NCBI RefSeq assembly: GCF_024362785.1
Contig: NZ_CP093301.1
Span: 2,108,001 to 2,172,000, forward strand
Reading direction: 5' to 3'
Source: Evansella sp. LMS18
Lineage (GTDB): Bacteria; Bacillota; Bacilli; Bacillales; Salisediminibacteriaceae
Length of the DNA: 64,000 bases
The first letter of the stretch is position 1, and the number at the start of each line of letters is the position of its first letter. The notes beneath the pieces were generated by a model. That model saw only the letters and a program-made list of their open reading frames with translations, searched no databases and was not told the origin of the DNA. A program made the translations under genes and the position numbers. Positions 22,971-52,475 of the stretch are shown here, in pieces.

Positions 22971-23145
22971 GCTCTCTTATTGAATAAAGCGCCTGAACTA
23001 TCCTTGCGGACGAAACGATGGATAGTTGACGAGGAGGAGGTTTATCGAGTTTTTCGGCGGATACCTCCCGGCTGTACGCCCCAGCCGAAAGCAGCTGACT
23101 AAAACGGAAAGGTGACTTTCCGAACAAAAGCAGCTGCATGGGCAC
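22971..23145 (+). ncRNA. glmS ribozyme (GlcN6P-responsive)
   Basis: The leader of glmS matches the glmS ribozyme core: GCGCC right after the predicted cleavage point between A22988 and G22989, then GTTGACGAGGAGGAGGTTTA, TCGAGTTTTTCGGCGGAT, CCTCCCGGCTG, and a terminal hairpin CGGAAAGGTGACTTTCCG. When glucosamine-6-phosphate rises, this RNA cleaves itself and the glmS mRNA is degraded. It lies about 100 nt before the glmS ribosome binding site, as in B. subtilis. The ORFs called across it (22875-23160) are not genes. Confidence 0.95.
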
Positions 23146-23243
23146 ATAACAGATCTGCAACTATTACACTAATTGATGATAAAGAGTGGGGCAGGTAATG
23201 CCCCGGTATTATCCTGCCCTGCTTAAGGGAGGAAATGTTATTT

Positions 23244-50878: not shown

Positions 50879-51835
50879 ATGACCAACCAGTATGAAACAG
50901 CAACCTTTGCGGGAGGGCGATTCTGGTATCTTGTCCGGCCATTCATAGAAATGGAGGGAACAGAAGAAGTTATTTCAGGATATGCTCATGCGGCGTCAAA
51001 GCCAGATGGGGAAGAACATAATAATCATCACCAAACCAACTACCGGGAAGCAGTACAGATAAAATATAATCCGGAAATTACATCCTATAATAATCTCCTG
51101 CATGTATTCTGGCGCCAGATCGATCCCACGGATGCGGGAGGGCAGTTTAACGACAGAGGGCAACGCTATGCACCTGCAGTGTTTTACCATAATGAAAATC
51201 AGAAGCGCCAGGCTGAGGAAGCAAAGTATGACCTGGAAAACAGCAGCCGATTCCAACCCTCTGTAGCTGTTGAGATACTTCAGCTGGAACACTTCTCCCA
51301 TGCAAGTGAGTTCCATCAGTATTTTTACAAAAAGCATCCTTTCCGCTACAAGCTTCTTGCTGCAAGATCCAAACGGGAGGGAGCCTTAAAAGAAATCTGG
51401 AAGGACACCCAAAAAGACAGGGAGTTGAGAGAGCGCCTGACCCCAATACAGTATGAGGTGACTCAGCTTAACAAAACAGAAATGCCATATGAAAATGAGT
51501 ACTGGGATAACGAAAGAGAGGGACTGTATGTTGATATTGTTTCAGGCGAGCCGCTGTTTACCACTAAAGATCAATACGATGCTGGCTGCGGATGGCCAAG
51601 CTTTACAAGGCCGGTTAATAAAAACAATATTAAAGAAGAAATGGATGTAAGCCATGACATAGTCAGAACAGAGGTGCGGAGCCGGGAAGCTGACTCTCAT
51701 TTAGGACATCTGTTCCTGGATGGCCCAGTTAAGGAAGGTGGACTTCGTTACTGTATAAACTCTGCGGCACTTCGGTTCATACCTGTTGAGGAGCTGGAAA
51801 AGGAAGGATACGGGGAATATAAAAAGTTTATCTAG
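50879..51835 (+). CDS. MsrA-MsrB fusion with an inactive-looking MsrA domain
   Basis: A 318-aa fusion. The C-terminal MsrB domain (about residues 175-318) looks active: 'CGWPSF' carries the zinc/structural region, and the catalytic Cys is in '[11 protein letters not shown]'. The N-terminal MsrA domain (1-160) keeps the fold ('GYAHAAS', '[15 protein letters not shown]') but the active-site GCFWC reads GRFWY: catalytic Cys14 is Arg14 (CGA codon) and the second Cys is Tyr17. The 'EVCSGTTGH' Cys is also missing. So only methionine-R-sulfoxide reduction is expected. ATG at 50879 follows GGAGGAAGCAAA. Confidence 0.85.
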
Positions 51836-51938
51836 CATTTAAATAACGCCCAGGTCAGCCAAACATAAATATTTCAGCCCACACAGCCTGTGTTAAAATA
51901 AATTTATGTTATCTGATTATTCAGAAGGAGGCCTGTGT

Positions 51939-52475
51939 ATGGATGCGAGAATTGGAATAGTAGAGTATGAGGATGCAGCCGGTAAACTAAAGGAACTTTA
52001 CGATCAGTATAATGGGAAAATGGCAAATATTTTAAAGGTGCATTCGCTGAATCCTAAGTCTCTGGAAGCGCATATCGGCTATTATAAAGCGATAATGTTT
52101 GGTAAATCACCTCTGCCAAGGGCGCTGCGGGAGATGATCGCGATAGTAGTGTCGGCAGAAAATAAGTGCCATTACTGAATGGAACACCATGGGGCGGCGC
52201 TCCATTTGCTGACAAAAGATGAGGAGCTTGTGAAAATTTTGAAGGAGGATTACAGGAAGGCAGAACTGGATAGGAAAACAAGAGCTATTTTTGACTATGC
52301 AGTAAAGCTGACCCGCAGCCCTTCTAGTGTGGCGGATGAGGATACAGACAGAATGAAAAAAGAAGGGTGTACGGACCTGGAAATTCTCGACGTGTGCCAG
52401 ATTGCCTCCTACTTTAATTTTGTCAACCGTATGGCGGAGGGGCTGGGAGTGCAGCTTGAAAAAGAACCAGAATGA
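51939..52475 (+). CDS. AhpD-like peroxidase-related protein, probable selenoprotein (CxxU)
   Basis: A 178-aa member of the AhpD/carboxymuconolactone-decarboxylase 'peroxidase-related' family. The helix with 'LREMIAIVVSAENKCHY' ends at residue 79, then TGA (52176-52178) sits where homologues have the second active-site Cys, followed by 'MEHHGAALHLL'. Read as selenocysteine the motif is C77-H-Y-U80, with His83/84. The frame continues without other stops to 52475, giving the usual family length. An ATG right after the TGA has no ribosome binding site. A SECIS-like hairpin lies 10 nt downstream. AGGAGG is 7 nt before the ATG at 51939. A nonsense mutation in a pseudogene is the alternative. Confidence 0.75.
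52189..52205 (+). ncRNA. Bacterial SECIS-like hairpin
   Basis: ATGGGGC-GGC-GCTCCAT forms a 7-bp stem with one G-U pair and a three-base loop that starts with GG. It begins 10 nt after the TGA codon at 52176, putting the loop 18-20 nt downstream, in the range bound by SelB in known bacterial selenoprotein mRNAs. It lies inside the coding sequence. Confidence 0.65.

Follow-up and report, generated by a model that had tools for sequence, protein, structure and literature searches.

The window analysed here, a stretch of 64,000 nucleotides from Evansella sp. LMS18, whose genome is one contig of 4,903,744 bases, carries a reading frame for an AhpD-like protein in which the sole internal stop is one in-frame TGA (Table 1). 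A plain listing of open reading frames splits this gene in two, and, correctly read, it would be one enzyme. The frame is preceded by a strong ribosome-binding site, AGAAGGAGG, and inspection of the sequence found no comparable site 5' of the ATG at 52179, which directly follows the TGA; on this last point an earlier note, made from the sequence alone, was right. The same note had proposed that reading through the TGA yields a complete AhpD-type protein with the TGA at the second Cys of the CxxC motif, and this is borne out by the family models: the read-through product scores 143.4 bits against TIGR01926 (cut-off 81.8), which places it in that family, and 52.2 bits against the CMD domain PF02627 (cut-off 23). 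It falls below threshold for two further models, NF041238 (AhpD_rel_CFYUT; 42.3 bits, cut-off 175) and NF053654 (YciW-related (seleno)protein; 23.7 bits, cut-off 310). Elsewhere, the window holds an ordinary glmS ribozyme (22977-23147, 130 bits).

Table 1. Features of the AhpD-like locus and of the other genes discussed. Bare positions are those of the window, G000 is the window genome, and L numbers are loci.
Feature	Position	Strand	Remarks
MsrA-MsrB fusion	50879-51835		just upstream of the AhpD-like gene
Shine-Dalgarno-like AGAAGGAGG	51923..51931	+	7 nt 5' of the start codon; read from the sequence
AhpD-like selenoprotein gene (TIGR01926 / CMD), predicted	51939..52475	+	178 residues, TGA80 read as Sec
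Glu65 codon	52131..52133	+	first proton-relay residue by motif spacing (motif from PMC3141380)
Cys77 codon	52167..52169	+	partner of Sec80 in C-x-x-U
TGA read as selenocysteine, residue 80	52176..52178	+	TGA in 29/29 distinct Bacillota orthologues (named collection: best 80 of 138)
His84 codon	52188..52190	+	U-x3-H
SECIS hairpin, 7 bp, loop GGC	52189..52205	+	comparative evidence
Terminal TGA, taken as true stop	52473..52475	+	sequence
SelW/Rdx-like selenoprotein (C-M-Q-U) and Sec-SelD	L009 6505 and 6699	opposite strands	among selA, selB and tRNA-Sec
Two peroxiredoxins	G000:C1:351135-351761 and 1221716-1222189	minus	Sec at the peroxidatic Cys place (FVUPTE; TPGU)
CYCXC/PCYCGC lipoprotein	G000:C1:460812-461267 (L316)		TGA at H-G-A-G-U-G-I-C
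Two Sec formate dehydrogenases	G000:C1:786093-787718; 4358231-4359778 (L193, L194)		TIGR01553, 1281 and 1064 bits
Sec-MsrA (GMGUFW)	G000:C1:1275290-1275928	minus	
CueP-family copper protein	G000:C1:1790633-1791166 (L285 10633-11166)	minus	154 bits by PF21172, cut-off 27
Second Sec-CueP instance	L030 2986-3513 (G061)		TGA at the same place, 53% identical

The predicted active site reads E65-x11-C77-H-Y-U80-x3-H84, and the proton-relay spacing of 0, 12, 14, 15 and 19 is matched by E65, C77, Y79, U80 and H84, with Sec for the second Cys. The same E-x11-C-x2-C-x3-H site is described for AhpD of Mycobacterium tuberculosis and for PA0269 of Pseudomonas aeruginosa, both of which have Cys where the window protein has Sec, and the PA0269 relay (E36, C48, Y50, C51, H55) places a Tyr at the position of Tyr79 (PMC3141380). 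The structure of PA0269 (2o4d) is a weak match to the window protein (E 4e-4), and the best match in the PDB is 2pfx (E 8e-32, residues 13-170), a Cys form with the motif C-F-Y-C whose entry name, uncharacterized peroxidase-related protein, gives no function. The entry names of the solved relatives 2pfx, 3c1l, 2oyo, 6k40 and 2prr mark them as AhpD, peroxidase-related or antioxidant proteins. Taken with the motif, these likenesses suggest that the AhpD-like enzyme is probably peroxide-handling; its peroxidase activity, substrate and electron donor are inferred. Sec80 occupies the second Cys place of the AhpD C-x-x-C motif, next to Glu65, Cys77, Tyr79 and His84; as the selenolate it would most likely attack a hydroperoxide, the resulting selenenic acid would condense with Cys77 to a selenenylsulfide, and a thiol donor would then reduce the Sec80-Cys77 bond. 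This order of events depends on which Cys of AhpD attacks first.

A selenoprotein on an AhpD/sestrin fold could also serve in thiol-disulfide exchange or as a sensor and not be a peroxidase at all. The product barely passes the Pfam sestrin model PA26 (29.6 bits against a cut-off of 29.4), TIGR01926 is named no more than peroxidase-related and the function of the subfamily is putative, and some relatives have a thioredoxin-like gene next door, all of which would suit such a role. Against it stand the retention of every AhpD proton-relay position (E, C, C/U and H, with Tyr as in PA0269) and the names borne by the best PDB relatives, and we regard it as unlikely, while giving it real weight, relative to a Sec-dependent peroxidase.

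The thioredoxin-like neighbour is itself a Sec gene (W-A-S-W-U-R-C), found directly 3' of the AhpD-like gene in three loci (L013, L029 and L030) and 2.6 kb upstream of it in Salipaludibacillus (L045). The protein scores best with NF041054 (ResA-like WAxxUGC), at 94.6 bits against a cut-off of 300, and where it is encoded directly downstream it would be the obvious candidate for the thiol donor. The gene was sought with TGA read through in 48 loci, 45 of them with the TGA gene and many with a flank of only 1.5 kb; it is a neighbour in 4 of the 45 TGA loci, most of which show little flank. The scanned half of the window genome yielded no Sec thioredoxin-like gene and one weak Cys match (E 8e-8), and no redox partner gene adjoins the AhpD-like gene there except the MsrA-MsrB fusion. 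Beyond the gene itself, no conserved neighbours were seen in 11 named loci with open reading frames cut at TGA, where one reverse-strand frame lies over the gene and an MsrA gene lies about 3 kb away in L047.

The distribution of TGA and Cys among relatives, which the earlier note had named as a check, places TGA at the same position in relatives. The AhpD-like gene is absent from all eight other genomes of the genus, and a search of 35 family genomes gave close relatives with a TGA, its place verified, in three besides the window's own, at 60-73% identity. Across 397 genomes of the order, 16 matches exceed 60% identity, the window's own included (the others at 64-73%); all 16 have TGA, the Cys form was not seen among them, and the next-ranked match is only 34% identical. 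Named relatives with the gene include Rossellomorea aquimaris, Salipaludibacillus aurantiacus, Alkalibacillus filiformis, Bacillus pinisoli and Fictibacillus nanhaiensis. On a wider scale, 113 homologue loci, for which the best 80 of 138 relatives in the named collection were used, divide into 45 with U and 68 with C at the motif place. Removal of six duplicates left 107 distinct rows, within the same best 80 of 138: 39 with U/TGA, 53 Cys orthologues and 15 Cys paralogues. The U rows comprise 29 from Bacillota (17 from the named collection and 12 from genomes of the window's order), 8 from Acidobacteriota, 1 from Gemmatimonadota and 1 other, and the Cys orthologues 35 from Bacteroidota, 8 from Balneolota and 10 others, all outside Bacillota, with the proviso that the named rows include many contigs binned from metagenomes, and their taxon labels may be wrong. 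A tree of the 107 rows, built by a quick method with the motif residue masked, has two changes of state between Sec and Cys. TGA is thus found in all 29 distinct Bacillota orthologues among the best 80 of the 138, and Bacillota Cys forms are possible among the remaining 58.

The hairpin pairs ATGGGGC with GCTCCAT, one of its pairs being G.U, and begins 10 nt past the TGA, with its loop 18 nt past it. The earlier note had called it SECIS-like and had suggested folding and scanning the region, and on that side the suggestion gained nothing: the folding energy of the 56-nt region is ordinary (z = 0.22, with 113 of 200 shuffles folding at least as well), the minimum-energy fold is another helix, with the five inner pairs of the hairpin appearing in the centroid, none of the seven Rfam matches in the window is of SECIS type, and a general SECIS rule overlaps between the two kinds of gene, giving best stems of 4-9 bp in the 39 TGA genes and 2-8 bp in the 53 Cys orthologues. 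Comparison, in contrast, upholds the hairpin. All seven pairs are formed in 33 of the 39 distinct TGA genes (the other six form 4-6 of them) and in none of the 53 Cys orthologues, in a count that takes its structure from the window gene and so favours that gene's near relatives. In 37 of the TGA stretches, two identical ones having been dropped, 95% of the hairpin cells are paired, and both sides have changed in 20 cells, compared with 7.2 +/- 1.9 in shuffles (0 of 500 reach 20) and 0-5 in slid controls. This signal rests on two pairs, pair 2 (T-A to C-G in 12 rows) and pair 7 (C-G to A-T or G-T in 8 rows), because double changes occur in two pairs, a number that 456 of 500 shuffles reach and that is therefore not above them; nor is the number of further pair types (six), which 88 of 500 reach. 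Independently of this, none of the other codon columns in Bacillota, out of 103, is as frozen as the four under the loop and 3' arm (86-89, 52194-52205), with Ala86 GCG in 28 of 28, Ala87 GCG in 29 of 29, Leu88 CTC in 28 of 29 and His89 CAT in 23 of 23; the Cys orthologues spell the alanine and leucine that correspond to 87 and 88 with a variety of codons. Judged by this comparison of TGA and Cys genes, the predicted hairpin is a SECIS element.

The genome is equipped to decode it. The search proposed in the earlier note for selA, selB, selD and a tRNA-Sec found all four: a single tRNA-Sec that passes the Rfam threshold (62.2 bits against 47; anticodon TCA), selA (542.6 bits by TIGR00474, cut-off 267.9), selB (363 bits by TIGR00475, cut-off 242) and selD (415 bits by TIGR00476, cut-off 125), the three genes all at most 6 kb from the tRNA. 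The selD gene itself has an in-frame TGA (G-U-G-C) and is adjoined on the opposite strand by the SelW/Rdx-like gene, whose product scores 77.6 bits by PF10262. The note's view that Sec is uncommon in Bacillaceae does not agree with these genomes, since SelB is over cut-off in 179 of the 397 from the window's order, and Sec decoding is not uncommon there. All 16 genomes that bear the AhpD-like gene belong to the SelB group. SelB is over cut-off for 13 of them among the matches listed, and in the other three (G061, G135 and G312) its best E values are 1e-102 to 4e-99, compared with 1e-49 to 1e-59 in genomes without SelB. For independent genomes the chance of such complete co-occurrence would be 2e-6, but these are not independent. 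Since UGA is leaky in Bacillus, the TGA might be read by near-cognate suppression, as Trp or Cys instead of Sec; the complete Sec machinery, the frozen and covarying hairpin, the Cys that other phyla have at the same place and the presence of SelB in all 16 genomes with the gene all speak against it, and we consider it very improbable.

The ATG directly after the TGA would permit two proteins, with the TGA as a true stop and a restart behind it, and the window strain shares this ATG with others among the 29 Bacillota orthologues (ATG 19, GTG 1, no common start 9), yet the ATG at 52179 lacks a ribosome-binding site, the codon is ATT, ATA, ACT or GTA in the remaining nine, the active site would be cut in two and the conservation of the hairpin would be left unexplained, so that this reading has next to nothing in its favour. 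Equally negligible is a broken gene, in which a Cys form intact elsewhere had been spoiled in this strain by a nonsense mutation or an error of sequencing: TGA is one base away from TGC and TGT, and the window shows one genome only, but the reading is refuted because the TGA is conserved, both in the 29 Bacillota orthologues from the best 80 of 138 and in the 16 close matches from the order, and the median pN/pS of 0.32 upstream and 0.33 downstream of it (406 pairs from the 29 Bacillota genes) indicates that purifying selection is equal on both sides.

What is left is a selenoprotein gene with a SECIS element, a reading adopted because the hairpin shows covariation, the freezing of its codons is confined to the TGA genes and none of the 53 Cys orthologues is fully paired. 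The gene almost certainly makes a single AhpD-like protein with UGA codon 80 decoded as selenocysteine, its peroxide chemistry being deduced from homology. SelA and SelD, the latter with its own Sec codon, would supply the selenocysteine, and SelB carrying Sec-tRNA-Sec would bind the hairpin 10 nt past the UGA and deliver it to the ribosome.

The AhpD-like CxxU family has been known since 2005, and the window gene is not a new kind. It was described from 27 Sargasso Sea sequences of COG2128, with a downstream SECIS drawn in that paper, according to a legend (PMC1088965), then from the Global Ocean Sampling data in 2008, with 299 AhpD-like 1 and 70 AhpD-like 2 selenoproteins (PMC2398784), and it is entered under TIGR01926 in a 2026 review (PMC13188914). 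The window protein shares with these the family model TIGR01926 and the C-x-x-U motif. The 2005 and 2008 examples are metagenome sequences, likened here by description, whereas the window gene belongs to a Bacillota group with Sec in all 29 orthologues (named collection, best 80 of 138). Closer in lineage is the AhpD-like (COG2128) selenoprotein of Alkaliphilus metalliredigenes, which by its description is of the same phylum, family and Sec form, although that organism is a member of the Clostridia (PMC1794560) and the window gene comes from another order. Among the papers listed in searches of an open-licence PMC library, none was seen to deal with AhpD-like selenoproteins in Bacillaceae.

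The AhpD-like gene has company. Scanning half of the genome (2.452 Mb) and two loci, together with targeted searches, likely brings the predicted selenoprotein genes to ten: the AhpD-like gene, two peroxiredoxins, MsrA, the SelW-like gene, SelD, CYCXC, two formate dehydrogenases and CueP. The de novo part of the scan returned 28 non-overlapping candidates, among them the AhpD-like gene, and missed FdhA-2; junctions such as those at 2033642, 2317122, 869345 and 617211 resemble adjacent genes that share a frame and were left uncounted. FdhA, SelD, Prx, MsrA, SelW-like, AhpD-like and CYCXC figure in the lists or text of the 2026 review (PMC13188914). The window's formate dehydrogenase is a Cys form, as the earlier note said, and elsewhere the genome encodes two more that carry Sec, in the motif A-R-I-U-H-S-S-T; hairpins with the loop GGTCT can be drawn after the UGA of both. 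One peroxiredoxin (FVUPTE) is of AhpC type, and TGA occurs in 9 of 10 family matches to it at 57% identity or more, its own included, as counted by presence and not by place. For the CYCXC lipoprotein, TGA stands at the same place in all eight matches at 58% identity or more, its own included, all from SelB-group genomes, while the 22 weaker homologues with loci have TGA in one (L337) and Cys in 21. The protein scores 67 against the cut-off of 90 of the NCBIfam CYCXC (seleno)protein model, so that this form would go unnamed by it.

A long MsrA with TGA occurs in 27 of the 35 family genomes, the window's own included, its place having been checked in part. The MsrA-MsrB fusion in the window has Arg for the catalytic Cys of its MsrA domain (GGRFW, codon CGA), and its MsrB domain keeps RYC. 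Among 11 such fusions in the family, this Cys is lost in five (R, R, H, P, H) and kept in six, and directly upstream of three of the five Cys-less fusions (L160, L161, L164) lies a Sec-MsrA gene (GMGUFW), as if Sec-MsrA had relieved the MsrA domain of the fusion. Against this idea, some genomes with an intact fusion also hold a TGA MsrA, and the window genome has a further MsrA match without a stop. The thought that the CGA is a decayed Sec TGA was dropped because relatives carry His, Pro or Cys at that place.

In the window genome's CueP, the TGA falls at residue 95, the first position of a U-x7-C pair (HPU). The second instance ends a run of three successive Sec genes in L030 (1492-3513), namely AhpD-like, thioredoxin-like (WASWURC) and CueP. 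A 7-bp hairpin with the loop GGT follows the TGA in both genes (CCTGACA/TGTCAGG and CTTGACA/TGTCAAG); between the two, one pair differs on both sides. Two Cys forms of CueP, both from plasmids, have five of the same seven pairs. No report of a Sec-containing CueP was found among the best-ranked papers of an open-licence PMC library, and CueP is absent from the main text of PMC13188914. From its sequence in these two genomes, Sec-CueP is possibly an undescribed selenoprotein family. On a plasmid of Staphylococcus equorum (L346 1501-1821), a CueP-like frame lies ahead of a gene for a copper-translocating ATPase, and it is without a gene entry in the PLSDB table, which is incomplete.

At least ten genes for selenium proteins thus seem to be present in this genome, more than would be expected of a Bacillus-like bacterium. 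A 2006 paper counted three selenoproteins of three families in Bacillales (PMC1794560). A 2026 review holds that aerobic bacteria seldom retain selenoproteins, and a 2016 survey gave 40.4% of Sec users as aerobic and 35.8% as anaerobic, with anaerobes making up 78.3% of the users that have at least six selenoproteins. The window genome holds three members of the haem-copper oxidase family PF00115, and therefore the bacterium probably respires oxygen. This family also covers NO reductases.

It is conceivable, and we put it forward tentatively, that Sec has been kept in this oxygen-using, Bacillaceae-type line because of oxidative and metal stress rather than despite oxygen, given a set of selenoproteins that would largely serve peroxide removal, methionine repair and copper handling, and no Bacillota Cys form of the AhpD-like protein seen among the best 80 of 138 in the named collection. 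That set would comprise Sec-AhpD, joined in some relatives by the Sec thioredoxin-like partner, two Sec-peroxiredoxins, Sec-MsrA, the SelW-like protein and Sec-CueP. With the AhpD-like gene present in such named relatives as Salipaludibacillus aurantiacus, Rossellomorea aquimaris and Fictibacillus nanhaiensis, the use of selenocysteine in peroxide defence would be open to testing at the bench.
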